This document shows, one piece after another, positions 16,046 through 37,019 of a stretch of DNA of 45,962 nucleotides (the stretch's first letter is position 1; the number at the start of each line of letters is the position of its first letter). A program made the translations under genes and the position numbers. The stretch is from a virus. Under the pieces are notes generated by a model that was not told the DNA's origin, did no database searches, and saw nothing but the letters and a program-made list of their open reading frames with translations. Where the stretch lies: positions 1 through 45,962 of the IMG/VR virus record IMGVR_UViG_3300036806_000238; one strand, given 5' to 3'.

Positions 16046-16351
16046 ATGTCGGTATATGTTGACAATGTTTTTATTCCAGCCAGGATAAAGAATTGGAATA
16101 CTACTTGGTGCCATATGACAGCAGATACACAAGAAGAATTACATCTATTTGCTGAAAAAATAGGACTTAAGAAATCCTATTTTCAAGATCCATTAACTAA
16201 AAAGAATTCTTTACCAGCTAAACCCGGAAGTATAGCTTCTCGTTTTTGGCATTATGACGTCACTGCTAATAAACGGCAGTTAGCCCTAAAAAAGGGTGCA
16301 TTAGCTGTAACAGCATTTGAAATGCTAGAAATTATGAAAGGTAGACCATGA
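16046..16351 (+). CDS. DUF4031 domain protein
   Basis: 101 residues. MSVYVDNVFIPARIKNW, CHMTADTQEELHLFAEKIGL, a Phe-Trp-His-Tyr-Asp patch (RFWHYDVT) and KRQLALKKGALAVT fit DUF4031, a small family common in actinobacteria and their phages with no firm function. It overlaps the NADAR gene by ATGA, so the two are probably made together. A diverged paralogue lies at 25616-25864. Confidence 0.78.
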   Translation: MSVYVDNVFIPARIKNWNTTWCHMTADTQEELHLFAEKIGLKKSYFQDPLTKKNSLPAKPGSIASRFWHYDVTANKRQLALKKGALAVTAFEMLEIMKGRP

Positions 16352-16791
16352 TTGATGACTTTAGAATGCAGAATTATTTTCTTAGCAATTTTTACCCACA
16401 TATAATATTTGCTGGTCCTCACCACATTACCTATCCAACTTTAGAACATGCTTATCAAGCAGCTAAAACAGATAGTTTGGTAGAAGCTACAAGTATTTCT
16501 AAAGCTGCTTCGCCCGGTTTTGCTAAAAGGTTAGGTAGACAAGTAAAACTAATAGATAATTGGGATGCTGTCAAAGATGCTGTTATGTTACGTCTATTAA
16601 TAATAAAATTTGCAGATCCAGTATTAAATAGCTTGCTTGAAGCTACTGCTAATGAAGAATTGGTAGAAGGAAATTATTGGCATGATAATTATTGGGGACA
16701 TTGTTTTTGTGCTAAATGCAAACTACCCGGCGAAAATAAATTAGGAAAAATGCTCATGCAGATTAGAAACAAGGAATTTTTAGCCGCATGA
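16348..16791 (+). CDS. NADAR (YbiA-like, DUF1768) N-glycosidase
   Basis: 147 residues. FLSNFYPHIIFAG, YPTLEHAYQAAKT, LGRQVKLIDNWDAVKDAVM and WGHCFCAKCKLPGENKLGKM are the family blocks. NADAR enzymes cleave N-glycosidic bonds in ribosyl compounds (YbiA acts on riboflavin intermediates) and some remove ADP-ribose from guanine or act in NAD metabolism. In a phage it may undo ADP-ribosylation damage or recycle NAD derivatives; the exact substrate is not readable from sequence. Confidence 0.88.
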   Translation: MIDDFRMQNYFLSNFYPHIIFAGPHHITYPTLEHAYQAAKTDSLVEATSISKAASPGFAKRLGRQVKLIDNWDAVKDAVMLRLLIIKFADPVLNSLLEATANEELVEGNYWHDNYWGHCFCAKCKLPGENKLGKMLMQIRNKEFLAA

Positions 16792-18483: not shown

Positions 18484-18726
18484 GTGAATGATTACGAAGT
18501 AAGTAGCGCATTAACTGCTAGAATTGAAAATGAAGGAACTTTTCATGTTCCACATGGCAATCAAGTAGAACGCTATGAAGGAATTAGACAATATATTACA
18601 GAAGTAAAGCATTTTATAACAAGAAATACCCCGCCTAGTAGAGAACAATCTAGTTCTTTGACGGCTCTAGATGAAGCAACTTTCTGGGCAAATGCAGCAA
18701 TAGCAAGAAATGAAAAGGAGGCATAA
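18484..18726 (+). CDS. acb2: Acb2/Tad1-hairpin family protein: cyclic-oligonucleotide sponge
   Basis: 80 residues, GTG start with AAAGGAT upstream. The diagnostic pattern is complete: FHVPHGNQVERYEGIRQYI, TPPSREQSSSLTAL, then DEATFWANAAIARNE. This is the helical-hairpin family of anti-CBASS protein 2, small hexamers known in other phages to sequester cyclic di- and trinucleotides and so block CBASS-type signalling. Its place in an early operon beside thyX fits a counter-defence gene. The family call is strong; binding here is inferred. Confidence 0.85.
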   Translation: MNDYEVSSALTARIENEGTFHVPHGNQVERYEGIRQYITEVKHFITRNTPPSREQSSSLTALDEATFWANAAIARNEKEA

Positions 18727-21369: not shown

Positions 21370-21508
21370 AGAACAAGCAGCTAAAATTATAGAATTACTA
21401 GAAAAACTTATAAACGTACAAAACACCCACATCCATTACCATTTTTCTAATGGTGGTATGGATGTTAGACCACCTTATTACACCTATGAGGTGCAGCGCT
21501 ATGGCTGA
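21362..21508 (+). CDS. 48-residue hypothetical protein
   Basis: MTEEQAAKIIELLEKLINVQ then HIHYHFSNGG: a helix followed by a His-rich strand. Overlaps both neighbours by 8 bases. The arrangement resembles small phage membrane or holin-associated proteins but lacks a clear hydrophobic span. Confidence 0.6.
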   Translation: MTEEQAAKIIELLEKLINVQNTHIHYHFSNGGMDVRPPYYTYEVQRYG

Positions 21509-22145
21509 AATCAAAGCTAGTATTATAGACAGGCTATATCAACAATACAATGGACACGCTACAAGCTTTAGTGGAACATATGACGGTTTTACCGGTTACA
21601 TCACTGTAGGTTTTGCTGATAGTACGTTCATTGCCATACCTTTTGAATACCATTCTTTAGATGGTAACAACCAGGGTAAAATGGATGTATTTATGCGTGT
21701 CATTAGTCAAGCTGCTGCGCAAGCTATTATACAAAATGCAGCTTTGCATAGCGATAGGCAAGCATTCATTGATAGTGTTTGTAGCTCTGGAAATATTCTT
21801 ACAAGCATTATAGACGCACTACAAAGTGCCTTTAACAACCATAGGCTGCTAATAACTGGCAATTATGATGGCCTACAAGGAACTATGCATATATTGTTTA
21901 GTACGGGAGAAACATATAATGTTAACTTTAGCTACATAGGAGATGTTACTAATAGTTTCATAGAAATATGCCATCGGGCAATAGCATATGCTATTAGCCT
22001 ATATAATGTGGAAAATCCACTAAGCCTGTATAGCATGGTAACTGGTGACTTGCCAGCTAATCAAACAGTATTTACTGTAGATTTAGCGCAACAAAATTTG
22101 TGGGCAACATACACATTATATAGCGAGGTGTATAAAGATATATGA
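21501..22145 (+). CDS. protein made of two internal repeats
   Basis: 214 residues from ATG 21501. Residues ~7-77 and ~102-166 are diverged copies: SIIDRLYQQYNGH / SIIDALQSAFNNH, GTYDGFTGYI / GNYDGLQGTM, IPFEYHS / VNFSYIG, then a helix with RVISQAAAQAI / HRAIAYAISLY. Each copy is helix, beta-hairpins, helix. Function unknown; the duplication suggests a built-in dimer. Confidence 0.7.
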   Translation: MAEIKASIIDRLYQQYNGHATSFSGTYDGFTGYITVGFADSTFIAIPFEYHSLDGNNQGKMDVFMRVISQAAAQAIIQNAALHSDRQAFIDSVCSSGNILTSIIDALQSAFNNHRLLITGNYDGLQGTMHILFSTGETYNVNFSYIGDVTNSFIEICHRAIAYAISLYNVENPLSLYSMVTGDLPANQTVFTVDLAQQNLWATYTLYSEVYKDI

Positions 22146-22321
22146 AATTCAAAATAAAGAATATTAGAATAGGGGATATACTTATGTTTAATGATGGTGA
22201 CATGGAAGTAACTGGAATTGAATATCGTTCTGAATTGATTCATGTACGTGATTCCGTTGCCGATACACATTCCTATTCTTTTAAAGATGTATTAGCTAAT
22301 TGTGCTGGTATAAAGAAATGA
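22142..22321 (+). CDS. 59-residue protein, distant member of the tandem 60-residue family
   Basis: MKFKIKNIRIGDILMFNDGD ... HSYSFKDVLANC. The opening K-x-x-x-I-R-I-G-D pattern, central strands and closing SFKDVL mirror the array at 24648-25584 (GDKY...FSFKEL), suggesting an outlying paralogue. ATGA overlaps at both ends. Confidence 0.65.
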   Translation: MKFKIKNIRIGDILMFNDGDMEVTGIEYRSELIHVRDSVADTHSYSFKDVLANCAGIKK

Positions 22322-22872
22322 AGTTTGAAAGTATACACCATGAAGAAAACAAGTTCTTTATACTAGCAGATTTTGATGAAGAATTAAAAGCTGGCATAAT
22401 AGTTCCTTTGACGTGCAAAATAGAAGAATTACGTATGCAGCACGGCGCTGTAATAGAAATATATATCAACAGCGACGGAGGAGATGGTAGCCTTGCTGTG
22501 CATATAATTCATTTGTTAGAATTAGCACAGCAATATGGAATTACTGTACGTACTATAGTTATGCGTGACGCTTTTTCTGCCGGGTCTTTAGTGGCTGTTG
22601 CGGGCACTCCTGGCGAAAGGTACATTAGTAGCTATGGCGAGCACTTGATACATTATGGCCAAAGTTATAATCCTGGCTATAGGTCGCCCTTGCAAACAGA
22701 TAGAGCAGCAGCCCGCACAAAACGCTGGTTTGGTAATATGCTTGATCACTATAAGAAATATGCCGCTATTCCTGATCTTGAAAAGGTAATGGCAGATGAC
22801 AATTTCTTTATCCCAGCGAAGAAATGTATTCAATGGAAGTTAGCAGACAAGGATATCTTAAAACTATGCTAG
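22318..22872 (+). CDS. ClpP-like serine protease
   Basis: 184 residues from ATG 22318. Crotonase-like Clp fold: EIYINSDGGDGSLAVHIIHL, nucleophile in RDAFSAGSLVAVAGTPG, His in YGEHLIHYGQ, Asp near MADDNFFIPAKKCIQWKLAD. The Ser-His-Asp triad is therefore present, although the usual G-x-A-x-S is FSAGS here. Phage ClpP homologues are best known as prohead proteases; this one lies in the early rightward operon far from the capsid genes, so it may instead act on host proteins. Confidence 0.82.
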   Translation: MKFESIHHEENKFFILADFDEELKAGIIVPLTCKIEELRMQHGAVIEIYINSDGGDGSLAVHIIHLLELAQQYGITVRTIVMRDAFSAGSLVAVAGTPGERYISSYGEHLIHYGQSYNPGYRSPLQTDRAAARTKRWFGNMLDHYKKYAAIPDLEKVMADDNFFIPAKKCIQWKLADKDILKLC

Positions 22873-24326: not shown

Positions 24327-24404
24327 TTGGCTAAAATAACTATAGCCAGGCTTTCTCAACAATTAGAACAAAACAATATACCCTATTTTGTAGAGGATTT
24401 TTAA
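24327..24404 (+). CDS. candidate 25-residue ORF, TTG start
   Basis: From TTG 24327 (MAKITIARLSQQLEQNNIPY...), ending in a TAATG overlap with the next gene. It fills an otherwise empty gap in a gapless operon, but has no good ribosome site. Confidence 0.3.
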   Translation: MAKITIARLSQQLEQNNIPYFVEDF

Positions 24405-24661
24405 TGGACAATGAAATAGATTCAACAATCTATAGTAGTAGAGCACAAGAACTAGGTATGGACCCAACATGGGTGCATATTTTGCACCTTCCCGGCCCGG
24501 ATACTTGGTATTTGATGTATTATGCAGCTCAAAGTGGTGGAAACAACAATCCCACGGTTTCAGCTCGACCAGCAGATTTTCCGGAATATGCAAGTATTTT
24601 CGATATATGCTACAAATTGTTAGCAGACTATAAAACAAAATATTTAGATGCGCAAGCTTAG
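24404..24661 (+). CDS. hypothetical protein
   Basis: 85 residues (MDNEIDSTIYSSRAQELGMD), TAATG start and a 14-base overlap with the first array gene. Not recognised. Confidence 0.65.
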   Translation: MDNEIDSTIYSSRAQELGMDPTWVHILHLPGPDTWYLMYYAAQSGGNNNPTVSARPADFPEYASIFDICYKLLADYKTKYLDAQA

Positions 24662-24860
24662 CATAGAAGATCTTAAAATAGGGACTAAATTTATATTTCT
24701 AAACGATACTATTGTTTACGAAATAGTTGACATGGACCTTGACGACTGGTATTGTCAAGCTAGGTGGCAGTATACTAGTAACGGAAAAAAGTATGCCATT
24801 AATTACTTTTGTCTATATCAAGAACTGCTTTGTCTAGCATATATAATTGAATTTGAATAG
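24648..24860 (+). CDS. tandem ~60-residue barrel family, member 1
   Basis: 70 residues (MRKLSIEDLKIGTKFIFLND ... NYFCLYQELL). The KIGTKFIF opening, central W...A strand and final aromatic-x-x-x-x-E-L match the following four genes, though this is the most diverged. Proposed fold: small SH3/Tudor-like barrel (inference). Confidence 0.65.
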   Translation: MRKLSIEDLKIGTKFIFLNDTIVYEIVDMDLDDWYCQARWQYTSNGKKYAINYFCLYQELLCLAYIIEFE

Positions 24861-24867
24861 GGAGAAT

Positions 24868-25041
24868 ATGTCTAAAATAAAAATAGGAAATAAATACCTG
24901 GCCAGCAATGGCATTGCTTGGACAGTTGTCAGTATTAATAAATTACTGAGAATTGCTAAATGCCATTCGGATAAAAAACTTCTTGGCGATGACTGGCCTT
25001 TTACATTTAAAGAAATAAATAAAATGAAATTGGTGAAATAA
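24868..25041 (+). CDS. tandem ~60-residue barrel family, member 2
   Basis: 57 residues from ATG 24868 (GGGAGA upstream). MSKIKIGNKYLASNGIAW, TVVSINKLLRIAKC, then FTFKEINKMKLV. Lines up with members 3-5 at K-x-G-(N/D)-(K/R)-Y, W-T-V, I-N-K, C and the closing F-K-E. Confidence 0.68.
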   Translation: MSKIKIGNKYLASNGIAWTVVSINKLLRIAKCHSDKKLLGDDWPFTFKEINKMKLVK

Positions 25042-25047
25042 GATAAT

Positions 25048-25227
25048 ATGCTAAAGTTTAAAAAAGGTGATAAGTATATAGCACACAAGGCTAGCTTCGA
25101 GCCGACTACATGGACTGTTAAAGCTATTAATAAAAGGTTGGGTATAGTTATTTGTACTAGCAATTCAATTGAATTTCCAACCAGGCAGTTTTCTATTGAT
25201 GAACTTCTTAAACTAAGAAAGGTTTAA
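25048..25227 (+). CDS. tandem ~60-residue barrel family, member 3
   Basis: 59 residues. MLKFKKGDKYIAHKASFEP, TTWTVKAINKRLGIVIC, then FSIDELLKLRKV. The closest relative is member 2 (TWTVKAINK against WTVVSINK). One base separates it from member 4. Confidence 0.68.
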   Translation: MLKFKKGDKYIAHKASFEPTTWTVKAINKRLGIVICTSNSIEFPTRQFSIDELLKLRKV

Positions 25228-25228
25228 A

Positions 25229-25405
25229 ATGCCAAAAAAAGGTCAACGTTATTATGTAGCTAGTTTTAAAGGATTAAGTTTTAATATTACTATTACAGAA
25301 GTAAGCTTTCTGCGGAAAGAAGTAAAATGCTTACCAGACCCAACGGCAGGCTTACCAGCCTTTACATTAAGCTTCAAAGAACTCAGAAAGCTGCATAAAC
25401 TATGA
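25229..25405 (+). CDS. tandem ~60-residue barrel family, member 4
   Basis: 58 residues. MPKKGQRYYVASFKGLSF, TITEVSFLRKEVKCLPD, then LSFKELRKLHKL. ATGA overlap with member 5. Basic overall, like its neighbours. Confidence 0.68.
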   Translation: MPKKGQRYYVASFKGLSFNITITEVSFLRKEVKCLPDPTAGLPAFTLSFKELRKLHKL

Positions 25406-25584
25406 AAATAAAACCGGGGGATAGGTATGTTATTCCTCCTTCTTTTAAAGGAGAAAAAGAAATATATATTACAATAATAAAAATACACAAATTAACCCGG
25501 CAGGTAAGGTGTGTTGCAGATAATATTCATATACCACTTTTCTTTTTATCTTTCAAAAGACTAGCTGAGCTAAAGAAAATATAA
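25402..25584 (+). CDS. tandem ~60-residue barrel family, member 5
   Basis: 60 residues. MKIKPGDRYVIPPSFKGEKE, IKIHKLTRQVRCVAD, then LSFKRLAELKKI. Shares SFKG with member 4 and the V-(K/R)-C-x-(A/P)-D turn. Last of the run. Confidence 0.68.
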   Translation: MKIKPGDRYVIPPSFKGEKEIYITIIKIHKLTRQVRCVADNIHIPLFFLSFKRLAELKKI

Positions 25585-25615: not shown

Positions 25616-25864
25616 ATGTCTATTTATATATATAAGAATGGTATTATTCCTTTTTCTAGTGTGGAAGATTATACAAACTTAAATGAAGTTCTTTTTAGAG
25701 TTACAGCAGATACAATAGAAGCACTAGAATATATAGGAGAAACTTTGGCATTGGGAGATTATAAGGGAAATGCTGGCCCCGGATATAGTAATTACTATTA
25801 TTATGTTACACAAAGAACCAAGGAATTATTGTTAGCACATGGTGCTATTGAAGTTGATTATTAA
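25616..25864 (+). CDS. DUF4031-like protein, second copy (diverged)
   Basis: 82 residues, with GGGGAG upstream. MSIYIYKNGIIPF, FRVTADTIEALEYIGETLAL, YYYYVTQRTKELLLAHGAIE track the first DUF4031 protein (MSVYVDNVFIPA, MTADTQEELHLFAEKIGL, WHYDVTANKRQLALKKGALA). The CHM segment and the Asp of HYD are lost. Last gene of the rightward operon. Confidence 0.65.
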   Translation: MSIYIYKNGIIPFSSVEDYTNLNEVLFRVTADTIEALEYIGETLALGDYKGNAGPGYSNYYYYVTQRTKELLLAHGAIEVDY

Positions 25865-26044
25865 TACATGATCAACTATTTGAAAAGCATATTTTGGAAC
25901 TAATTATTTATACAAGTTGATGTACGCATTTCAAAATAAAAGCGAATTGCAATAGTGCGCACATAAATAAGCATTACTTAGACAATCCTTTTATTACAGA
26001 AAAAGGCATTCCTGCATTAAATTCAATTGCATAAACAATTGTTT

Positions 26045-26074
26045 AGCTCCCCCGCTAATTAAAGCGGGGGAGCT
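26045..26074. terminator. hairpin between converging operons
   Basis: A 12-bp perfect stem (AGCTCCCCCGCT / AGCGGGGGAGCT) with an AATTAA loop. U-tracts are weak on both sides, but it separates the rightward and leftward operons and is probably a bidirectional terminator. The 180 bases before it (25865-26044) hold only an 11-codon ORF. Confidence 0.65.
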
Positions 26075-26088
26075 TAATGTATCCCCTA

Positions 26089-26361
26089 TTAGAAAGGAAT
26101 AAAGCATGTCCATTCTGTATAACCAAAGGTAGAAGCATTAACAGTTCTTGCTTTGTATTCTAATTGCATTGTCCACCATGTATGCCCATACCTAATACCA
26201 ACATAGACAATGCTAGCAATAGGCAATAGACCTAGTGGTGTCTGTATGCGCATGTTGGCCCTGAGTTGGTCTGTACGCCTGGTTATAAAGCTAGGTGCGT
26301 GCTTGTACTTGACATGCTTTGTTAGTGGCTTAGCTTGCATCTGGGAGCCATATAGAGGCAT
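26089..26361 (-). CDS. hypothetical protein
   Basis: 90 residues (MPLYGSQMQAKPLTKHVKYK), basic N-half, aromatic-rich C-half (YGHTWWTMQLEYKA). Last leftward gene before the convergence. Not recognised. Confidence 0.6.
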   Translation of the reverse strand: MPLYGSQMQAKPLTKHVKYKHAPSFITRRTDQLRANMRIQTPLGLLPIASIVYVGIRYGHTWWTMQLEYKARTVNASTFGYTEWTCFIPF

Positions 26362-26362
26362 G

Positions 26363-26488
26363 TCAGTACTTTGCTAGGTAGGTGTCAACCATGCCTTCTA
26401 TAGCAGCAACGTCCAATTCAACATTGTTCCATCCATCTGCATAAATACTGTTCAGCAATTCATAGAGGGCTTCCCGTGCATTAGGCAT
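26363..26488 (-). CDS. 41-residue hypothetical protein
   Basis: MPNAREALYELLNSIYADGW then NNVELDVAAIEGMVDTYLAK, two helices. The layout (short helix, DGW, helix ending YL) recurs in small actinophage proteins. One base separates its stop from the next start. Confidence 0.6.
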   Translation of the reverse strand: MPNAREALYELLNSIYADGWNNVELDVAAIEGMVDTYLAKY

Positions 26489-26509
26489 TGTTCACCAATC
26501 CATTGTTTG

Positions 26510-26776
26510 CTAGGTCATTTGCGCTGCTAGTTCTACTAGCGCTTTTGCAATCGAATAGAATTCAGTGGGGGTAGAAGGGAATACGTTAATGATATAGGTA
26601 CTGCCCGCTATTACAGTAATAGCATCCTTTCCATTGTTTGTGTATTCTACTTCAATACCACCTTCTTTGTATGTCAGTGTTGGCATATGCTTCCAATACG
26701 GTTGTTTATTACTTACAGTTAGCAAAAGCTTTATTTCCATAGGGGTAAAAAGCTGTCTTTTTATACGCACGGTCAC
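26510..26776 (-). CDS. hypothetical protein
   Basis: 88 residues (MTVRIKRQLFTPMEIKLLLT), mostly strands with a final helix (FYSIAKALVELAAQ). Not recognised. Confidence 0.6.
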   Translation of the reverse strand: MTVRIKRQLFTPMEIKLLLTVSNKQPYWKHMPTLTYKEGGIEVEYTNNGKDAITVIAGSTYIINVFPSTPTEFYSIAKALVELAAQMT

Positions 26777-26848
26777 ATTTTGCTAGTATTCGCTAGGCTT
26801 TTCAAGCACCAAATAGGTGTTTTTTAATTAAAATGGGCGTAAATACAA

Positions 26849-26935
26849 TCAATTCTGCTTACGCCTATTACGCTTTTTGACATAGTCAACAGCATCCATA
26901 AGCAATGCAATGCAATCCAGTACAATCCAAAACAT
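26849..26935 (-). CDS. 28-residue small protein
   Basis: MFWIVLDCIALLMDAVDYVK followed by a basic tail. A hydrophobic N-terminal helix with a basic end; AAAGGTG stands 10 bases upstream. Confidence 0.5.
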   Translation of the reverse strand: MFWIVLDCIALLMDAVDYVKKRNRRKQN

Positions 26936-27006
26936 AGTTAATTGGCACCTTTCAATTGTATTTCGTCACAATGTATACCCCATTTGACCTGCGGAAATAG
27001 GTTATT

Positions 27007-27024
27007 TATATACATTTGTATATA
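27007..27024. repeat. inverted repeat in a 160-bp intergenic gap
   Basis: TATATAC-ATTT-GTATATA. A second inverted repeat, TATAGC ... GCTATA, lies about 45 bases on. Possible operator or promoter region for the short leftward gene at 26935; I find no convincing -35/-10 pair. Confidence 0.35.
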
Positions 27025-27096
27025 TCAATTTACCCCAAAAAGCCATTGGAGCGTATTTATAGCAACCAAATAGTCGCTATAAAATTACTTTCACGC

Positions 27097-27213
27097 TTAT
27101 ATATGCATTGCTAGTTGTAATACAGCAGTAATAAGAATAAAAGCAAAGACAATACAACCCAACCCCGCGAAAATTGCTAGTATTAGCAATAGCATTTTAG
27201 CTAGAGTGCGCAT
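27097..27213 (-). CDS. 38-residue single-span membrane protein
   Basis: MRTLAKMLLLILAIFAGLGC then IVFAFILITAVLQLAM. Strongly hydrophobic; GGAGG 10 bases upstream. The GLGC could be read as a poor lipobox. Overlaps the upstream gene by 17 bases. Confidence 0.58.
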   Translation of the reverse strand: MRTLAKMLLLILAIFAGLGCIVFAFILITAVLQLAMHI

Positions 27214-27364
27214 AGGCGTAATACCTCCGCTGGTTATTGTTCTCCCGGCTAAAATGCCTACGTGCACCTAGTTGCTGTCTTTGCTTTTTGCTATAGCGCT
27301 GCTCCTGACAATCATGGCATTGCTTTTGAATACTGCTATTGCCGCAAGCACATTCGTAGAACAT
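27197..27364 (-). CDS. small cysteine-pair (zinc-finger-like) protein
   Basis: 55 residues. CACG...CHDC forms a possible zinc site, followed by a very basic Gln/Arg tail (KKQRQQLGARRHF). Could bind nucleic acid. Two bases separate it from the upstream gene's stop. Confidence 0.55.
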   Translation of the reverse strand: MFYECACGNSSIQKQCHDCQEQRYSKKQRQQLGARRHFSRENNNQRRYYAYAHSS

Positions 27365-27366
27365 TA

Positions 27367-27696
27367 TTAGCCTTTCAGCGGAATTGCATTGTTGATGTCA
27401 ACACGTTCGCATTCGCGGTAAGCGACTACATTCGGACAATTATGGATAATCCTTTCTACTTCCTGCCGAAATTCAAGGTAATAGTTCGGCGCATAATCGT
27501 CGTCAACAGGAAAACGTTGCACATAATAAAAGTGCACACCATCCCAATACCAGCTAGTATTAAAAACGGGGTCGTTCCAAAAACCGGCACCGCTTTCATA
27601 GCGCAATTTATCCGACCTCTGTTCCTGCCCAATATTCGGCAATTGCACAATAGGGAGCACAATGGGTGTAGCATCAAATTGATGAATCCATGCCAT
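27367..27696 (-). CDS. hypothetical protein
   Basis: 109 residues (MAWIHQFDATPIVLPIVQLP), AGGAGG upstream. Trp/Tyr-rich centre (FNTSWYWDGVHFYYVQRF). Last AT-rich leftward gene before the GC-richer block. Not recognised. Confidence 0.65.
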   Translation of the reverse strand: MAWIHQFDATPIVLPIVQLPNIGQEQRSDKLRYESGAGFWNDPVFNTSWYWDGVHFYYVQRFPVDDDYAPNYYLEFRQEVERIIHNCPNVVAYRECERVDINNAIPLKG

Positions 27697-27724
27697 ATTT
27701 TCCTCCTGTCTAATAAGCTAGCAA

Positions 27725-27746
27725 GCTGCATAGTTGCCTATGCAGC
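27725..27746 (-). terminator. hairpin downstream of the Ala-rich gene
   Basis: A 9-bp stem (GCTGCATAG / CTATGCAGC) with a TTGC loop just after the stop at 27758. No U-tract on either side, so termination is uncertain. Confidence 0.45.
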
Positions 27747-27757
27747 AAGCTAATCAA

Positions 27758-28333
27758 TTAGGCAGCAGCAGTAGCGGCAGGCTCAACAGCCTCTACAACG
27801 GGAGAATTGTCCAGCTTGGTGATACTGACCTTGCTAGCGTCCAGCTCAGCAGGATCGCCCCATCCCTTAAGCTTGGCCGCCGCCGCAAGAATGGTCGACT
27901 CCGAAACTCGACCACGCTGGCCCATTGCATTACCATGCTCACGGATCTCAGCCAGCGTCATGGTCACCTTTGCGGGGCGCTTGCCCTTACCGCTTGAATT
28001 GGGCACAACGGCCTTGACGACGTACTTGACGTCACTAGCAGGCTTAGCAGGGGCAACCGACTTAGTACCCAGAGCGGCAAGCATGTCCTTAGCGGTAGCA
28101 GCGGCATCCGCAGACACCACAATGCGCTCTAGCATGGCCTTAATGCCACCCTGCGGACCATTGGCCATAGCGGCAGAAAAGTAGGGCGTATCGTCAATCG
28201 TGTCGCCCTTAGCCACAATGGCACTAGCAAGCTTGCCAAGCGGAGTTCGACCTCGACCAGCAGGCCACTCAACGTCATACTTGGGTGCCAGAGCACGTGC
28301 ATCGGCAGGGTTGGCAATTCGAACAGTAGTCAT
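27758..28333 (-). CDS. Ala-rich basic protein, possibly DNA-binding
   Basis: 191 residues with GAGGAAAT upstream. N-half: NPADARALAPKYDVEWPAGR and PYFSAAMANGPQGGI. C-half: KGKRPAKVTMTLAEIREHGN followed by QRGRVSESTILAAAAK, a basic helix-turn arrangement that faintly recalls Lsr2-type C-terminal domains. Alanine content and GC-rich codons differ sharply from the AT-rich genes beside it. It marks the edge of the compositional block. Confidence 0.65.
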   Translation of the reverse strand: MTTVRIANPADARALAPKYDVEWPAGRGRTPLGKLASAIVAKGDTIDDTPYFSAAMANGPQGGIKAMLERIVVSADAAATAKDMLAALGTKSVAPAKPASDVKYVVKAVVPNSSGKGKRPAKVTMTLAEIREHGNAMGQRGRVSESTILAAAAKLKGWGDPAELDASKVSITKLDNSPVVEAVEPAATAAA

Positions 28334-28364
28334 TATTTCCTCATTCTATTTTTGTTGGTTAATG

Positions 28365-28781
28365 TCAGCTCAATGCATTAATGCACTTTTGCAAATCTGT
28401 AAGCTGCCTATCAACAGCTTCAAAAGCAATATCCAATGCTTGTCGCTGCGCAAGGAGATCATCCGCTTCTAGCATGGCAGCATTCCTACGTTCCACAAGC
28501 TCATCAACAAGCTTAGACATAGTTTTAACTTGTTTGCGCCATTCGGTATGCATTTCGTCAGCTTGACGACCCGCAGATATAAAAGCGTATTTGCCAGCAC
28601 CATCTTCTAGGTGCAACGCGTCTAGTCCATCCATATAGTTACCATAAAGCTGCCCAAGCACGCACAATTCACAATGGCTAAGGTCCAAACTGTCCCAATT
28701 GACCAAAGTACGCCAATTCTTAGGCGCCTTGCTGTCCAGTAGCTCGATTGAGTTCTTAACTCTGCTAGCAGTAGTAAGCAT
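28365..28781 (-). CDS. coiled-coil protein with CxxC motif
   Basis: 138 residues. HCELCVLGQLYGNYMDGLDA is a block I recall from other actinophage proteins. The C-terminal ~80 residues form a long helix. Preceded by the repeated leader (28790-28862). Function unknown. Confidence 0.65.
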   Translation of the reverse strand: MLTTASRVKNSIELLDSKAPKNWRTLVNWDSLDLSHCELCVLGQLYGNYMDGLDALHLEDGAGKYAFISAGRQADEMHTEWRKQVKTMSKLVDELVERRNAAMLEADDLLAQRQALDIAFEAVDRQLTDLQKCINALS

Positions 28782-28789
28782 AATGCCCC

Positions 28790-28862
28790 TTCAGTTGGTC
28801 TGTAACGGCCTAACAAGGCTTGGTTGGTAGGTTATACCAACCAAGCCTTTTGATCTTGTTAG
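28790..28862 (-). promoter_or_regulatory. repeated structured 5' leader, copy 1
   Basis: In the direction of transcription: CTAACAAG, then a 15-bp hairpin (arms AAGGCTTGGTTGGTA / TACCAACCAAGCCTT), CTTGTTAG, then AGACCAACTGAAGGGGCA and ATG. The same outer arms and the same AGACCAACTGAAGGGGCA occur at 32671-32746. The AAGGGG is the ribosome site, so folding could gate translation. Confidence 0.55.
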
Positions 28863-28868
28863 GATGGC

Positions 28869-29132
28869 TTACAGCCTACCTAGCCACCCTGTAGCACCGT
28901 TGCGGCTTGCATACTGCCCAAAGCCACTAGCGTTAAAGATTTCCCCAGTAGTCGAGTCATAGCAGCGCACGGTGTAAAAGCGCTTGCCAACCGGAAAAAC
29001 TTCAGATGACACGAAATAGGTATGCTGTCCAGTGGTCTTGCAAGTTGATTCGCAATAACGGGAATTGAAGTCAGCAGCATTGGCAAACCAATGCTGCGTT
29101 CGGCCGTCCTTGCGAATATCGTCAAGGTTCAT
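28869..29132 (-). CDS. tandem paralogue pair, copy A
   Basis: 87 residues from ATG 29132 (GGAAGG upstream). MNLDDIRKDGRTQHWFANAA, SRYCESTCKTTGQHTYFVSS, YTVRCYDSTTGEIFNASGFG, QYASRNGATGW. Clearly homologous to the gene at 29157-29429. A beta domain with paired cysteines. Function unknown. Confidence 0.7.
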   Translation of the reverse strand: MNLDDIRKDGRTQHWFANAADFNSRYCESTCKTTGQHTYFVSSEVFPVGKRFYTVRCYDSTTGEIFNASGFGQYASRNGATGWLGRL

Positions 29133-29156
29133 AAACAATGGCCTTCCATATCGATC

Positions 29157-29429
29157 CTAGGGCTTTATTTTCCTACGCATCCAACCAACGGCGCCGTTGC
29201 GACTGGCAAACTGCCCAACTTCACTAGCCTTGCGAATTTCACCCGTTTCGCTGCTATAGCAACGTACGGTATAAAGCCTACCTCCTTGAAAAATTTCACT
29301 ACTAACAAAATAGGTAAGCGTGTCGCATACTGTAATGAATGTGCTAGCACAATAGCGACTTTGAAAACATGCAGCGCCATCAAACCACTGATTGGTTCTA
29401 GCATCCGCCCGGATATCGTCAAGGTTCAT
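29157..29429 (-). CDS. tandem paralogue pair, copy B
   Basis: 90 residues. MNLDDIRADARTNQWFDGAA, SRYCASTF, LTYFVSSEIF, YTVRCYSSETGEIRKASEVG, QFASRNGAVGW. More than half of the positions match copy A. The second copy has lost one cysteine (CESTC becomes CASTF). ATGA overlap with the upstream gene. Confidence 0.7.
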   Translation of the reverse strand: MNLDDIRADARTNQWFDGAACFQSRYCASTFITVCDTLTYFVSSEIFQGGRLYTVRCYSSETGEIRKASEVGQFASRNGAVGWMRRKIKP

Positions 29430-29620
29430 CCGAGCATACTGCCTAGAGCAATTCCGTTGGCTGTACCAAAATCACAACCGATAAGCCACGCTCGACAAAC
29501 AATTTCAAAGTTGGCAGCAGTTGTACCCGGTACCTCAAAGTACACAATGTTTCCAAGCGTGTCAGCGCTAACCCTTTCATCCCAAAGCACAAATAGCACA
29601 CCATCAAATTCATAGCTCAT
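29426..29620 (-). CDS. small hypothetical protein
   Basis: 64 residues (MSYEFDGVLFVLWDERVSAD). The LGNIVYFEVPGTTAANFEIV pattern suggests a beta-alpha unit. Not recognised. Confidence 0.6.
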   Translation of the reverse strand: MSYEFDGVLFVLWDERVSADTLGNIVYFEVPGTTAANFEIVCRAWLIGCDFGTANGIALGSMLG

Positions 29621-29632
29621 ATCAAAAACCTT

Positions 29633-29803
29633 TCAGTTGTAGACCCGCTTAAGCAGCACAGAGCCATCTGGCGACTTGATACGCATCCGCTTGGCGTCAC
29701 CGACAATACGCGCCAGGCTAGCCTTGAAAAGAATGCCAGCCTTGCCCTTGCTAGTAGCAACCGTACGGTAAGCATTCTTGCTGTAGACCTGAACCGTAAA
29801 CAT
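29633..29803 (-). CDS. small basic hypothetical protein
   Basis: 56 residues (MFTVQVYSKNAYRTVATSKG ... LLKRVYN), basic, strand-helix-strand. GAAAACGGA stands upstream. Not recognised. Confidence 0.6.
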   Translation of the reverse strand: MFTVQVYSKNAYRTVATSKGKAGILFKASLARIVGDAKRMRIKSPDGSVLLKRVYN

Positions 29804-29818
29804 TCCGTTTTCTCCTAT

Positions 29819-30175
29819 TCAGCCGTAAACAACGTCATCAAAAGCACACTGCTGTAAAATGCAGTCGGCAGTGACAGCATCAAAGTCAACAAGCTCCAAT
29901 GCGTCTGCCCCAGCGAACATATAGAGGCAATTTCGGGTGCAGTCATCAGGCATTGCAAGCTCACCAATAGCAACCTTGCGTACAACGTCAAGCAACTGCG
30001 TATGCCCAACCTTGTACTTAATGCCTTCGTCATCAGTAAAAGTCAATGTCCAATCGATCAGGTCAGGACAATGGTGTTCTGCCACTACGACATTGTTGTA
30101 CCAAGAATAGCTAAGTGCGCCACTACCGAGAAAAGTATCACCAGTGAATTCAGCGTCTACCCCGGCAAAAGTCAC
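29819..30175 (-). CDS. hypothetical protein, GTG start
   Basis: 118 residues from GTG 30175, chosen because it overlaps the upstream stop as GTGA; a longer ATG reading would overlap that gene by 67 bases. TFAGVDAEFTGDTFLGSGA, VVVAEHHCPDLIDWTLTF, CTRNCLYMFAGADALELV. A cysteine-containing mixed fold. Not recognised. Confidence 0.6.
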   Translation of the reverse strand: MTFAGVDAEFTGDTFLGSGALSYSWYNNVVVAEHHCPDLIDWTLTFTDDEGIKYKVGHTQLLDVVRKVAIGELAMPDDCTRNCLYMFAGADALELVDFDAVTADCILQQCAFDDVVYG

Positions 30176-30399
30176 AGCGCACCAACCGGCATGAGCACGT
30201 TGGTAGTGACTTCCTGGCCCACAAGCTCTAGACGCCACACATTGAGCACGACAGCACGCTTGTTAGTGCCTGCCAGTTCAGCCGTAGCAGCGTCGGCCGC
30301 CGCTTTAGGAGTCCTAGCCTTGACGACCCTAGAACCACGTGCTGTAGCGCCATACAGCCGGTAATCCACGCGGTAGGTCTTTTCGTTTGGCTTAGTCAT
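30172..30399 (-). CDS. small hypothetical protein
   Basis: 75 residues (MTKPNEKTYRVDYRLYGATA). An alpha/beta unit with AKAAADAATAEL-like alanine helix (KTPKAAADAATAELAG reads here as TPKAAADAATAELAG). ATGs and stops overlap both neighbours. Confidence 0.62.
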   Translation of the reverse strand: MTKPNEKTYRVDYRLYGATARGSRVVKARTPKAAADAATAELAGTNKRAVVLNVWRLELVGQEVTTNVLMPVGAL

Positions 30400-30740
30400 T
30401 ATGCCCTTCCGTCAATCTGGATATAAAAGCTACCAACGTGGGTAGTGAATTTGATACCAAGTACGTCAATCGTTTTAGACACCGACCATTGCGGATATGC
30501 ATAGTCAGTAGCATCAAACTCCGCCGGTCTGCTATTGGTAATGTGCAATTCAATGATGCCGTCAGTGTGCCATTCAAAGACACGCACACTACCTATATCA
30601 GCACCATAATATTCTGCGGCATAGGTTCGCTTGAGTTCGTCCAGCAGTTCAGGAATTGAATAGCACAGCAATGGACAACCGTTGATTTCAACAATGAAAT
30701 ACCTAGATCGTGATTCAGGCATAATAGTTTGGCAAGGCAT
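30399..30740 (-). CDS. hypothetical protein
   Basis: 113 residues from ATG 30740 (MPCQTIMPESRSRYFIVEIN), preceded by GGAG at 8 bases; an in-frame ATG 23 codons earlier lacks a good ribosome site. YSIPELLDELKRTYAAEYYG, then strands ending THVGSFYIQIDGRA. Not recognised. Confidence 0.6.
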   Translation of the reverse strand: MPCQTIMPESRSRYFIVEINGCPLLCYSIPELLDELKRTYAAEYYGADIGSVRVFEWHTDGIIELHITNSRPAEFDATDYAYPQWSVSKTIDVLGIKFTTHVGSFYIQIDGRA

Positions 30741-30825
30741 TGGGGTAGCTCCATTCGTCCATAAGCCAGGTGCGTAGAATCCATGCCGTCCGGCCGTTGC
30801 CGTCAACATGTCAGCATGTCAGCCC

Positions 30826-30942
30826 CTAATTATTGTAAATGCGCAAGGCACGGCGCGTACGCCAAAACGTTTTGCCTTGGTGCGAATACTGCACCATGAC
30901 GTAGTTGGGATCAAAACAAGTACGTGTCTGGATAATGGTCAT
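30826..30942 (-). CDS. 38-residue hypothetical protein
   Basis: From ATG 30942 (MTIIQTRTCFDPNYVMVQYS), overlapping the upstream stop by ATGA. Strands followed by a basic end (FWRTRRALRIYN). Confidence 0.58.
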   Translation of the reverse strand: MTIIQTRTCFDPNYVMVQYSHQGKTFWRTRRALRIYNN

Positions 30943-31241
30943 AGCGACACTCCCGGTCCGTAGCGTTCGAGCATCCCCACAAGCCATGCACGGCCAACGG
31001 GATTCATAGTGTGCACATAGCACTTAGCAGGCCACGCGTCATTGACGGCTAACCAGAGCACAACAGGCCGCGTGGTGTCGTCACCACCAAGGTCATGGTC
31101 AAAGCTAATACATTCGAAACGTGCGTCTTTGATATGCCACAATTCAAGCATGTAAATAGCTGCCACGGAATTGGTGACCGTAATGCAATTGCCTGCCCAA
31201 TTGGCCGGGGCAGGTCGAACATCGTCAATCCACAGATTCAT
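30939..31241 (-). CDS. cyclic-phosphate processing receiver-domain (cREC) protein
   Basis: 100 residues from ATG 31241 (ATGA overlap). MNLWIDDVRPAPANW, SFDHDLGGDDTTRPVV, HTMNPVGRAWLVGMLERYGP match the family of stand-alone receiver-like domains predicted to process 2',3'-cyclic phosphate ends or cyclic nucleotides. With the RNA ligase at 44216-44734 it hints at RNA end repair or cyclic-nucleotide handling. Confidence 0.8.
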   Translation of the reverse strand: MNLWIDDVRPAPANWAGNCITVTNSVAAIYMLELWHIKDARFECISFDHDLGGDDTTRPVVLWLAVNDAWPAKCYVHTMNPVGRAWLVGMLERYGPGVSL

Positions 31242-31402
31242 CGATTGATCCAAACTTTGTTTATTTCGACATTGGTGGCATTGGGCAGCGAAATGCGCAC
31301 CATTGCACGGAACTGCCACCAGTGCAATTCTGTATCGCCATCCCTAGCCAACAAACCCGGATATTCGGTGAAAATAAGTTTCGCAACCTGTTCGATGTTC
31401 AC
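31238..31402 (-). CDS. small hypothetical protein, GTG start
   Basis: 54 residues (VNIEQVAKLIFTEYPGLLAR). GTG overlaps the upstream stop as GTGA, and its own stop overlaps the next gene as ATGA. ELHWWQFRAMVRISLPNAT suggests a strand pair. Confidence 0.6.
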   Translation of the reverse strand: MNIEQVAKLIFTEYPGLLARDGDTELHWWQFRAMVRISLPNATNVEINKVWINR

Positions 31403-31788
31403 AGCTTTTCCGTTTCCTGTTGCAACTGATGAATAAGCATAGGGATAAGGTATTGCCGTTCTTCCGTGCTGAAATAGTCAATGTAGTCAATAAACGTATT
31501 GAAAGTGAAGTCAGCCAAAAGCTTAAAGAATTCAGCACATTTGGCACGCTCAAAGTCCTTGGCAGCATTCAAAGCCAATTCAAGGGCACTAATGCCGGCT
31601 TCACACGTGCCGCACATGTAGTCAGGTCCGTAAGGGTCTCCCACGTAGCCACCATGCTTGCAATAACCGCCATTGGCAGGCCAGCGAAGGTCATAGTTGT
31701 GTAGGCGCTTGAATGCTTCCCTAGCCCGCTTTTTGGCTTCCGGAGACAAGCCACGCCATATAAGGGCGTGCGCGCTTAGCGTAGACAT
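31399..31788 (-). CDS. hypothetical zinc-site protein
   Basis: 129 residues. CKHGGYVGDPYGPDYMCGTC supplies a Cys/His cluster; the N-terminus LSPEAKKRAREAFKRL and the long C-terminal helices flank it. Not recognised. Confidence 0.62.
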   Translation of the reverse strand: MSTLSAHALIWRGLSPEAKKRAREAFKRLHNYDLRWPANGGYCKHGGYVGDPYGPDYMCGTCEAGISALELALNAAKDFERAKCAEFFKLLADFTFNTFIDYIDYFSTEERQYLIPMLIHQLQQETEKL

Positions 31789-31792
31789 TGAA

Positions 31793-32143
31793 TTAGTCCC
31801 TCGCTAGATTGAATTGTTCAGACAGCGTAAGCAGCTTTTCGGCTACATTTTCCTGAAAATCATTCAAAGATTCACGCAGCGTGTCTAGCTCACCAAGTTC
31901 GGTAAGCATTTCCTTTGCTGCCTGTTCAGCCATGTAGGTCATATTGTGCTGAATAGAATCGGCGAAATGCTTAGGGTCAAGCTCAACGCCATTGATCGTA
32001 ATGTGCATGTCAACTTCGGTGAAGCCATTCGTAGATTCTGAAAGTTCAGTAAAAAGCTTTTCGTTGCTCCTACCCGCAATAAGGTTAACAACCATCCAAC
32101 TCAAAAAGCTTTCAGTGTCGAGTTCGTGCCAGTTGAATTGCAT
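31793..32143 (-). CDS. helical hypothetical protein
   Basis: 116 residues from the ATG at 32143, which overlaps the upstream stop as TAATG. MQFNWHELDTESFLSWMVVN, then long amphipathic helices with heptad character to the end. Could be a scaffold or adaptor; unknown. Confidence 0.6.
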   Translation of the reverse strand: MQFNWHELDTESFLSWMVVNLIAGRSNEKLFTELSESTNGFTEVDMHITINGVELDPKHFADSIQHNMTYMAEQAAKEMLTELGELDTLRESLNDFQENVAEKLLTLSEQFNLARD

Positions 32144-32502
32144 TAGCAGTCTTCCAATCTGGTCTTGGTGTTGTCCCAAAGCTTGGACCAACCTGGCATG
32201 GATGGCCTATTGCCGGCAGTACGTACATACTTGTCCAGCGCCAAAAGCTCCCTACGCTCAATGCCTACGGGCAGCGTAACCAATTCGGCTGTAATCTCCC
32301 TACGCAATGCTTCAAGGTCGACAATGGCGCCACTAGAACCAAAGCTGTAAAGAGCCGTCCATTGGCCACCATGCCATTCCATAGCGATCCGCCTAGCCTG
32401 TCCGTCATTGATCATTTTAGGATCAACCCATTTCCCGTTTTCCATCTCACCTGAAGTGTCATGCGTGTCGTAATAGGCGGCGATGTCCTCATGCTTTGTC
32501 AT
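32143..32502 (-). CDS. hypothetical protein
   Basis: 119 residues. The N-terminus MTKHEDIAAYYDTHDTSGEM resembles the EDI..YYDTHD..(D/G)EME opening seen in some small antitoxin- or CopG-like proteins, but no ribbon-helix-helix core is evident. The C-half has RREITAELVTLPVGIERREL. ATGA overlap with the upstream gene. Confidence 0.6.
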   Translation of the reverse strand: MTKHEDIAAYYDTHDTSGEMENGKWVDPKMINDGQARRIAMEWHGGQWTALYSFGSSGAIVDLEALRREITAELVTLPVGIERRELLALDKYVRTAGNRPSMPGWSKLWDNTKTRLEDC

Positions 32503-32663
32503 TTCCGCCCCATAAATTCGTTGGTGTCAACGTCCAATACTTCGCCATTCGCATAGACCCGAACAGCACCGCCATCCGTGACAACGTCAACATAGGCAGC
32601 ATCGGAACTGACCTTAGACACGTCTACCAAGTAACCCTGTTCGTTGTACTGTTCCACGCGCAT
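32499..32663 (-). CDS. small beta-rich hypothetical protein
   Basis: 54 residues (MRVEQYNEQGYLVDVSKVSS), strands ending VRVYANGEVLDVDTNEF. First gene after the second copy of the repeated leader. Confidence 0.62.
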   Translation of the reverse strand: MRVEQYNEQGYLVDVSKVSSDAAYVDVVTDGGAVRVYANGEVLDVDTNEFMGRK

Positions 32664-32670
32664 CCGTATT

Positions 32671-32746
32671 GCCCCTTCAGTTGGTCTCTAACAAGATCCT
32701 TTAGCTTTGGAGTGTCTTGATACCAGACAGCCGGATGATCTTGTTA
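32671..32746 (-). promoter_or_regulatory. repeated structured 5' leader, copy 2
   Basis: In the direction of transcription: CTAACAAGATC, an internal small hairpin (TGTCT-GGTATCA-AGACA), GATCTTGTTAG (11-bp outer arms), then AGACCAACTGAAGGGGCA and ATG. The outer arms and the 18-base tail match copy 1 at 28790-28862, while the interior differs. Confidence 0.55.
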
Positions 32747-32753
32747 GAATCGA

Positions 32754-33134
32754 TTACAGCGCCAAGTCTTCTAATGCAAGTGCATAAGCCGCTAGATGTT
32801 CCATGTTCGTTTGTACTTTCGGTGTCAATCCGAGCCACAACCTAGCGGCTTTTCTGAAGTCTTGAGAGTCTGGCCAATCCGGCATTGGTCGATTGTAAGT
32901 CTGTCCTGAATAGATGCATATTGGGCCACCACCTGGCCTACCACCAACATAGTGCTTAGTAAGCAATGCACCATGCCAGCAAGACACAAGAACACTACGT
33001 TCACAATGGGGACATACAATGCTCGGACGCATAAGTAATGGTAAGCGTTGTACTGTTTCCCGCTTATCCCTCGAATGTGCTCGTGTGCCCTTTGTTCTAT
33101 TCAGCTTTCCCACATAGTTATTATAAGCGTGCAT
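32754..33134 (-). CDS. hypothetical protein with CPHC zinc motif
   Basis: 126 residues. Basic N-terminus (NRTKGTRAHSRDKRETVQR), CPHCERSVLVSCWHG (Cys/His cluster), a Gly-rich turn GGRPGGGP, and a C-terminal helix. Possible nucleic-acid binding. GAAAGG upstream. Confidence 0.62.
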   Translation of the reverse strand: MHAYNNYVGKLNRTKGTRAHSRDKRETVQRLPLLMRPSIVCPHCERSVLVSCWHGALLTKHYVGGRPGGGPICIYSGQTYNRPMPDWPDSQDFRKAARLWLGLTPKVQTNMEHLAAYALALEDLAL

Positions 33135-33160
33135 CCTTTCTTTCCTTTCATTTCCTTTGT

Positions 33161-33223
33161 GGTCCGCCAGGGGATTGAACCCTAGACCCCTATGGGGTTT
33201 TAATCCGTGGAAGCTTGCGGACC
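33161..33223 (-). ncRNA. tRNA-like element 1 (no normal D or anticodon arm)
   Basis: 63 bases. 7-bp acceptor GGTCCGC / GCGGACC, T arm TAGGG-TTCAATC-CCCTG next to it, then A as discriminator. The 32 bases between acceptor and T arm, where about 40 are usual, form no D arm and no 5-7-5 anticodon arm; a tight ACCCC-ATA-GGGGT hairpin is possible. No CCA end is encoded. Could be a decayed tRNA gene or a tRNA mimic. Confidence 0.55.
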
Positions 33224-33231
33224 CTAGCTAT

Positions 33232-33372
33232 TTAGTTGAACATAAAGGGGAATTCATTGGCTAGCAAGCCAAAAGCGGCTGCTAGCATGAGCGCAGACAG
33301 CACGTAAACCCAAACGTAGCGCTTAGGCTTGCTAGCATCAAAGCTAGTCGCAGTCGTATTCCGCATCGTCAT
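33232..33372 (-). CDS. 46-residue single-span membrane protein
   Basis: MTMRNTTATSFDASKPKRY then VWVYVLSALMLAAAFGLLAN: basic stretch followed by one span. Nine bases from the tRNA-like element and overlapping the upstream micro-ORF. Confidence 0.58.
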   Translation of the reverse strand: MTMRNTTATSFDASKPKRYVWVYVLSALMLAAAFGLLANEFPFMFN

Positions 33373-33412
33373 ATCCTTCGGTCGATTCCGGCCAGACAAT
33401 GTAATTGAACAT
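33344..33412 (-). CDS. 22-residue acidic micro-ORF
   Basis: MFNYIVWPESTEGYDDAEYD and Cys-Asp. AGGAG upstream. Overlaps the membrane-protein gene by 29 bases in another frame, so it could also act as a leader peptide. Confidence 0.45.
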   Translation of the reverse strand: MFNYIVWPESTEGYDDAEYDCD

Positions 33413-33421
33413 GCTGGACTC

Positions 33422-33721
33422 CTAGCTATTGTCGGTTACCGGTCCATCAAAAGCCACATCATCCGCCAAAAACTGCACAAACTCCATAGCAAAACCACTG
33501 GGCAAGCTAGGTGACATTCCCAAGTAATAGGAGAGGACCACCTCCGCATAAAACAGCGCAAAGTCGTTGGCCAAAGCATTGTGCTGAACAATCAATTCCA
33601 TGTCACAATACTGACCGAGCATATGCCTATGGCTGGCCAACCAACCTTGTGCAAAATAGTAAGCCTTTTGCTTTTCATCCTTTGCAAGCTTTTCAGCTAA
33701 CGCTATTTGCATATCAGGCAT
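33422..33721 (-). CDS. tandem paralogue of the 33714 gene
   Basis: 99 residues from ATG 33721 (8-base overlap). YYFAQGWLASH, then LANDFALFYAEVVLSYYLGM and a final FVQFLADDV line up with LASEFAQWYAQKVVDYYLNG in the upstream gene. This 'LARDFA..YA' type is frequent in actinophages, function unknown. Confidence 0.62.
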   Translation of the reverse strand: MPDMQIALAEKLAKDEKQKAYYFAQGWLASHRHMLGQYCDMELIVQHNALANDFALFYAEVVLSYYLGMSPSLPSGFAMEFVQFLADDVAFDGPVTDNS

Positions 33722-33974
33722 CAGCAGTCCAAACCCAAAATGCAGTAGGGATATCCATAGGCAGATTGCCACCATTCAGGTAGTAGTCAACAACCTTCTG
33801 TGCGTACCACTGTGCGAACTCTGATGCTAATTCGTCATGATGATCATCTTCGGCAGGCTTAGCATAGGAATTCGAATCGACACGGCAACTGAAATAATAG
33901 CCATTGGCAAACGTGCGTGCCTGTTGTCCCGCTTCCGCAATCGACTTAGCGATGTCAAAAACATAAGCCGTCAT
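33714..33974 (-). CDS. conserved actinophage protein, LASEFAQWYA type
   Basis: 86 residues. YVFDIAKSIAEAGQQARTFA, DELASEFAQWYAQKVVDYYL, IPTAFWVWTAD. Related to the next gene downstream. ATGA overlap upstream. Confidence 0.65.
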   Translation of the reverse strand: MTAYVFDIAKSIAEAGQQARTFANGYYFSCRVDSNSYAKPAEDDHHDELASEFAQWYAQKVVDYYLNGGNLPMDIPTAFWVWTADA

Positions 33975-34150
33975 GCTCTACGTCCCTCCGCTATTTCACG
34001 TGAATGCAATTCAATATCAACGGCCGTCCAGACGTTGTCAGCATGTGCCTTGTTGTCTTGGCACCAATCCCGCGTTTCACGTCGGTAGATGCGCAGCAAT
34101 TGACGCAATTCGAACAGCTCATCGGTCGAGATCAAACCAAAGTCACACAC
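33971..34150 (-). CDS. small helical hypothetical protein, GTG start
   Basis: 59 residues from GTG 34150 (VCDFGLISTDELFELRQLLR), where AGGAG lies five bases upstream; an in-frame GTG 12 codons earlier lacks one. Basic helices. Confidence 0.58.
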   Translation of the reverse strand: MCDFGLISTDELFELRQLLRIYRRETRDWCQDNKAHADNVWTAVDIELHSREIAEGRRA

Positions 34151-34189
34151 AATAACTCCTAAAGTTTGGATTGTGGTTAGCCGCACCTA

Positions 34190-34321
34190 TCAATGCCATA
34201 AGGCTAGCTCTTGACTAGCACCGGCCACGGACTCATTACCAAAAGGCATTTTGACCACATAAGGGGGATCGTCGCCTAAGCGCATTCCCATGTGCTTGCG
34301 CACTATTTTAGGATGGGGCAC
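34190..34321 (-). CDS. candidate 43-residue protein, GTG start
   Basis: VPHPKIVRKHMGMRLGDDPP then YVVKMPFGNESVAGASQEL. The reading frame is protein-like and fills the gap. A shorter ATG start is possible. No clear ribosome site. Confidence 0.42.
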   Translation of the reverse strand: MPHPKIVRKHMGMRLGDDPPYVVKMPFGNESVAGASQELALWH

Positions 34322-34375
34322 ATGGCCCCGATTGGGTTATAAAATGCATGGCTTTTTGTTGGCTTTGTTACCATG

Positions 34376-34648
34376 TTAAACATTGACCGACATAGTATTA
34401 CCAGCCGACCAACCGTGGAAATGGTTTTTGTTACCGTACACTGGCCGATCAAACCAATGCCAATAGGCTTTTTGTATGCCATTTCTATAAGGCCCCGCTA
34501 GTCTCGGAAGACAGCGACGAATAAGTGTATTCGACATGGTTCGCCTGAATTGGGGTGTTTCAAGTTCCAATTGTAAGCGGCTTGCCATGCTGGATATGAC
34601 TAGCCCTGCCATAGCTTCCACGCATGGCCTGATCTCCCTAGGGTTCAC
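34376..34648 (-). CDS. hypothetical basic protein, uncertain
   Basis: 90 residues from GTG 34648 (MNPREIRPCVEAMAGLVISS), or shorter from an internal ATG. Basic and aromatic C-half (AYWHWFDRPVYGNKNHFHGW). No good ribosome site; plausible only because coding continues in the same strand. Confidence 0.4.
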   Translation of the reverse strand: MNPREIRPCVEAMAGLVISSMASRLQLELETPQFRRTMSNTLIRRCLPRLAGPYRNGIQKAYWHWFDRPVYGNKNHFHGWSAGNTMSVNV

Positions 34649-34649
34649 A

Positions 34650-34768
34650 GGAGCAGTCTAGTTAATCCCTAGGTGGCCGTATTGCCGTCTAGGACGGCCG
34701 TAGGCGACCTATCGTGCTACGTGGGTTCCGTGACACCCAAGAAGCCCACACGGGCCGTAGCGTGCACG
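34650..34768. other. hairpin-rich non-coding stretch
   Basis: GC-rich, no convincing gene. Contains GCCGTC-TAG-GACGGC and, at its right edge, GCACGCT-AG-AGCGTGC, with CACCA-GTAG-TGGTG a little further on. It could be an RNA element or a processing or packaging signal; nothing decides. Confidence 0.35.
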
Positions 34769-34924
34769 CTAGAGCGTGCTGTGTTCACGAACAGTCTGGG
34801 CAGTTAGTTGACGTTGGCCGATCACCAGTAGTGGTGAGTCACAACCAAGGCCGTTATGCCGATGAATAACACTGGCAGCAAGAACCATGACGCGCTGGTC
34901 ATGCCTAGCACACCGGAGTTTCAT
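34769..34924 (-). CDS. candidate 51-residue protein
   Basis: MKLRCARHDQRVMVLAASVI then HRHNGLGCDSPLLVIGQ. GAAGGG before the ATG, the same type of ribosome site as the repeated leaders. The Cys/His spacing could bind zinc. Its end runs into the hairpin-rich stretch. Confidence 0.48.
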   Translation of the reverse strand: MKLRCARHDQRVMVLAASVIHRHNGLGCDSPLLVIGQRQLTAQTVREHSTL

Positions 34925-34933
34925 GTCATCCCT

Positions 34934-35095
34934 TCAGAGCCAATGTTGTGGACGTGTGCCAGCCATAGACAGCCAATTATCCATGGCATTGAAAGCACGA
35001 GCAAAATCAAACTCAAGCTGCGTTGCGCTTTCTCCCGAATTGAATGCCTTGGTAACCAGGTCACGCAAATCGTCAAGCAATGCGTTCGGATCCAT
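34934..35095 (-). CDS. small acidic helical protein
   Basis: 53 residues (MDPNALLDDLRDLVTKAFNS ... FARAFNAMDNWLSMAG). This MDPNALL-helix-ALD.WLS type is familiar from actinophages, unknown function. The start overlaps the upstream stop as TGATG. Confidence 0.65.
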   Translation of the reverse strand: MDPNALLDDLRDLVTKAFNSGESATQLEFDFARAFNAMDNWLSMAGTRPQHWL

Positions 35096-35526: not shown

Positions 35527-35527
35527 G

Positions 35528-36683: not shown

Positions 36684-36748
36684 TTCTTGCATCCTTTCTA
36701 GTTTCGAACAAGCTGCACCTATGTAGATGCAGCAAGCAAAAAACTAGC

Positions 36749-37018: not shown

Positions 37019-37019
37019 G

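Follow-up and report, generated by a model that had tools for sequence, protein, structure and literature searches.

Four consecutive small genes of an uncultured phage are, as judged from their sequences, true paralogues of a single family, and structure prediction supports SH3-like barrels of the KOW/Tudor type for their products. During infection, the most likely ligands of these proteins, designated B to E, are DNA, RNA or proteins of the host cell. By analogy with known phage proteins, the preferred reading, held tentatively, is that they may be basic SH3/KOW-like takeover proteins directed at nucleic acid or the nucleoid.

The paralogy was examined with leave-one-out profile HMMs, in which a profile of three members was used to search the full set of 737 six-frame ORFs in the window, the complete 45,962-base virus record. 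All four members were recovered (Table 1), with the next window ORF at an E value of 0.03 or worse. Pairwise shuffle z-scores among B, C, D and E range from 3.6 to 14.9 in local and from 4.5 to 10.6 in global alignments. The identity among the four proteins is low (28 to 42%), with K, G, Y, T, C and P residues invariant across them. The original prediction of a constant order of motifs, and of a mutual profile match better than that of unrelated proteins, is borne out for these four genes, which find one another and no other ORF of the window. The nearest relative of member C is B (z-score of 9.9), and that of member D is E (z-score of 14.9). These sister pairs adjoin each other, which suggests two rounds of duplication; the genes are best explained as four copies of one phage gene made by serial duplication. 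The pN values (0.38 to 0.53) lie below the pS values (0.66 to 0.90, near saturation) in every member pair, a substitution pattern that shows purifying constraint on B to E. Member B begins with an ATG preceded by AGGGAG, a TTG at 24847 being the less likely alternative start. The start codon of member E overlaps the stop codon of member D (ATGA), suggesting translational coupling of these two genes.

Table 1. Array members, claimed extra members and flanking features, in window positions
Feature	Position	Strand	Length	Net charge at pH 7	pI	Result
Small gene X, supposed sixth member (distant)	22142-22321	+				Not recovered by profile
Small gene A, claimed fifth member	24648-24860	+	70 aa	Acidic		Not recovered by profile of members
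Array member B	24868-25041	+	57 aa	+7.6	10	Leave-one-out E 2e-9
Array member C	25048-25227	+	59 aa	+6.6	10	Leave-one-out E 5e-9
Array member D	25229-25405	+	58 aa	+6.6	10	Leave-one-out E 3e-8
Array member E	25402-25584	+	60 aa	+7.7	10	Leave-one-out E 2e-12
Last gene of plus-strand operon	25616-25864	+	82 aa	Acidic		Unrelated to array
GC-rich hairpin (inverted repeat)	26042-26077		15-nt arms, 6-nt gap			Arms 93% complementary

The array had been proposed to hold five genes and a distant sixth member elsewhere, and serial duplication stands for four genes only. The profile score of gene A amounts to 1.5 bits, which 45 of 1,000 shuffled sequences reach, and the gene was not recovered by the leave-one-out HMMs; a five-member array was rejected on these grounds. 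Its product carries a net charge of −4.5, compared to about +7 for the array members; its single-sequence structure model, with a pLDDT of 61, is too uncertain to bear on membership. The sole favorable sign is a global z-score of 4.1 against one member, so that membership of gene A in the family is at best marginal. Gene X, the supposed sixth member, was discarded as a chance-level match, since 321 of 1,000 shuffles score as high, and its net charge of −0.3 likewise lacks the basic character of the array.

This basic character, which had gone unremarked originally, sets the four proteins apart within their operon. Ranked by net charge per residue, B to E occupy the first to fourth positions among the 26 plus-strand operon proteins examined, and at about ten columns of their alignment three or all four members retain a basic residue. 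Mainly because of this strong shared positive charge, a nucleic-acid or nucleoid-related ligand is preferred here, although the charge could serve protein binding, and the many kinds of ligand taken by SH3-like folds count against the nucleic-acid reading.

An AlphaFold2 model of member E, calculated from the four-row alignment of B to E, has a mean pLDDT of 89.9 and a pTM of 0.71. The predicted structure contains β-strands at residues 8 to 11, 21 to 29, 34 to 39 and 47 to 50, a helix at residues 51 to 55 and a short bridge near residues 58 and 59, a layout that agrees with the SH3-like small barrel, in which a short helix precedes the last of five strands. Foldseek searches against the PDB place the KOW domain of Spt5 first (TM score of 0.71), followed by KOW domains of NusG and by Tudor domains, with TM scores of about 0.6 to 0.7 and E values no better than 0.02; such weak E values are expected for 60-residue barrels. 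Among viral models, the best structural matches are uncharacterized phage proteins with TM scores of up to 0.82. The model and these matches uphold the small SH3/Tudor-like barrel suggested originally, as a predicted fold within a class of 60-residue barrels that are hard to distinguish from one another. The type B dihydrofolate reductases (DfrB), which are SH3-like tetramers, were considered and rejected, as their active-site motif VQIY (PMC9835603) is absent from all four members.

The prominence of KOW domains among the fold matches raises the alternative that the members mimic KOW proteins, namely, the C-terminal domain of NusG or uL24, with RNA polymerase or the ribosome as their direct target. 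When PDB sequences were searched with a profile, the KOW protein uL24 ranked first, with an E value of 0.039 that is below significance, and this weak resemblance, together with the Spt5 and NusG fold matches, speaks for such mimicry. The similarities are generic to the fold, however, and the Pfam KOW profile (PF00467) finds no match in the window at E values up to 10, with positive controls detected in 14 of 14 cases. Furthermore, each protein comprises only 57 to 60 residues and contains no NGN domain. Direct KOW mimicry is regarded as quite unlikely.

The window shows the setting of the array in a putative actinobacteriophage genome. Its major capsid protein has 65% identity to those of Streptomyces phages of the family Stanwilliamsviridae, and because these relatives are ∼130 kb long, the shorter record probably represents a piece, or a permuted portion, of such a genome. 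An Rpf-like transglycosylase domain at 41848-42423 agrees with an actinobacterial host. The plus-strand gene run spans roughly 15.3 to 25.9 kb, with the array near its 3′ end, and the hairpin between this operon and the convergent minus-strand genes is a probable transcription terminator. A GC-rich block (26200-40400; about 48 to 52%, compared to about 35% elsewhere) begins near the convergent genes. It may be the equivalent of the GC-richer direct terminal repeats of 10 to 12 kb of Streptomyces BE-cluster phages (PMC8612146). The minus-strand gene at 27758-28333, with related genes in the records G008 and G005, encodes by eye an Lsr2-like DNA-binding motif (IREHGNAMGQRGRVSESTI); the Lsr2 DNA-binding profile PF23359 finds no match anywhere in the window. 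Two further minus-strand genes (28869-29138 and 29157-29429) form a close tandem paralogue pair with a z-score of 45, the first matching DUF7447. A ribonucleotide reductase-like ORF at 10085-13060 on the minus strand contains, by eye, a seeming intein (CLASDTLLLTSEG...).

Comparison with related phages places the array at the variable 3′ tail of the operon. The ThyX and RNase H genes upstream of it are common to three related IMG/VR records (G005, G008 and G016), and one gene immediately 3′ of RNase H is weakly shared with related records. From there to the convergent genes, nothing is clearly shared except a DUF3307 gene, which lies on the opposite side of RNase H in G008. The product of the plus-strand gene at 21498-22142 contains one domain in two copies, and the relatives that follow RNase H in G005 and G016 match both halves with the same stretch. 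A ClpP (Clp protease-like) protein is encoded at 22318-22869 in the plus-strand operon, apart from the structural genes.

Two operon neighbors may relate to host defense. The Acb2/Tad1 hairpin domain (PF24729; E value of 7e-14) at 18538-18708 (plus strand) belongs to a probable cyclic-nucleotide sponge; the gene lies in the same plus-strand operon, as had been noted, but 6 kb upstream of the array. A NADAR-domain protein (PF08719; E value of 2e-23) is encoded at 16348-16788 (plus strand), with a possible ADP-ribose-related role in counterdefense. Both neighbors favor an alternative, the arms-race reading put forward originally, in which the members are diversified protein-binding inhibitors of host defense, each copy having its own target and being maintained by the conflict, as do the conserved core with variable loops and an interval with almost no genes common to related phages. 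Against this, pN is below and not above pS in every pair, the conserved high positive charge suggests a shared ligand class instead of diverse targets, and the members match neither PADLOC nor any named family. An identity as Acb4-like sponges was rejected, as Acb4 differs in size and secondary structure, with 96 residues forming three strands and five helices (PMC11722364).

Related phages carry similar arrays of other small proteins. The equivalent interval of G016 contains a different array of four small paralogues of an (F/Y)VDGP...EYRYS family (L137, 8360-10655), and a similar single (F/Y)VDGP-type gene was seen by eye at L138 9343. G008 (L096, 17742-18679) and G014 (L108, 3467-4534) harbor four and three tiny tandem paralogues, respectively, unrelated to the window array. 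These sets resemble the array in comprising three or four diverged small paralogues but are unrelated to it in sequence, and only that of G016 is placed in the equivalent interval. Tandem growth of tiny genes is accordingly habitual in these phages rather than particular to the array family, and tandem duplication alone is therefore no pointer to a conflict role. On balance, the defense-inhibitor alternative is rated as unlikely. The same duplications in unrelated families, together with the two sister pairs, would fit a dose-related or neutral expansion, in which a generic small barrel was duplicated and redundantly kept or in which the four proteins form a hetero-oligomer; the divergence to 28 to 42% identity under retained constraint suggests instead a long upkeep of each copy, and such an expansion is considered very unlikely.

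Searches for relatives of the array proteins were negative throughout. Searching 50,697 phage genomes by tblastn with all four members yielded chance matches only (best E value of 0.3), and no sequence relative was found for the four members in IMG/VR or for two members in GTDB contigs. The array profile matched neither the related phage records nor any of the compared loci, and the neighboring gene at 24404-24658 found nothing as search bait. PADLOC, PHROGs and Pfam gave no family below an E value of 0.1 for the four members, and literature searches found no tandem small-barrel arrays in phages.

Several known systems share the fold class or the proposed role of the array. In the Viral AlphaFold Database, SH3/Tudor-like barrels make up the largest, the fourth largest and the fifth largest of the viral structure clusters specific to bacteria (PMC12487901). 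These are likewise small and phage encoded, in contrast to which the array consists of four tandem basic paralogues without a PHROG match. Spt5/NusG KOW domains are the best structural matches (TM scores of 0.71 and 0.64), and the weak sequence resemblance of uL24 resides in the first strands, but the array members are stand-alone barrels. The T4 protein MotB, an early gene product from a nonessential region, has a predicted N-terminal KOW domain, binds DNA nonspecifically and alters H-NS binding (PMC7827196). MotB shares a KOW-type small-barrel domain with the array, a likeness in predicted fold, and differs in its extra OB-fold and its conservation in the Tevenvirinae; its value as a precedent is weakened, as its DNA binding may stem from the OB-fold rather than from the KOW domain. 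LUZ24 gp4, a phage protein that antagonizes MvaT, a silencer of the H-NS family, demonstrates that phages do target nucleoid silencers (PMC8501957). This small protein acting on the host nucleoid is set beside the array by proposed role only, and its mechanism may not be that of the array members. Viewed against the SH3/Tudor clusters, MotB and LUZ24 gp4, the array is, on sequence comparison, a new orphan family within a well-populated kind of fold.

The preferred explanation of basic takeover proteins proposes that one phage gene was duplicated serially, doubling twice, to give four basic SH3-like barrels of 57 to 60 residues. Through their basic surface they would bind nucleic acid, or host machinery attached to nucleic acid, such as the nucleoid, RNA polymerase or ribosome, and would thereby aid host takeover, as proposed for MotB. 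Loop differences between the copies may tune partners or merely raise the dose. A more specific version, in which the stand-alone KOW-like barrels form a modular takeover kit, each copy with a different nucleoid, transcription or defense partner in an actinobacterial host, is considered improbable, the least probable of these readings.

Many phage SH3/Tudor-like barrels are without known function. The four-copy basic array, with its diverged sequences but constant predicted fold and charge, offers a compact set for probing the ligands of such barrels and also allows one to ask if duplication shifts the binding partner.
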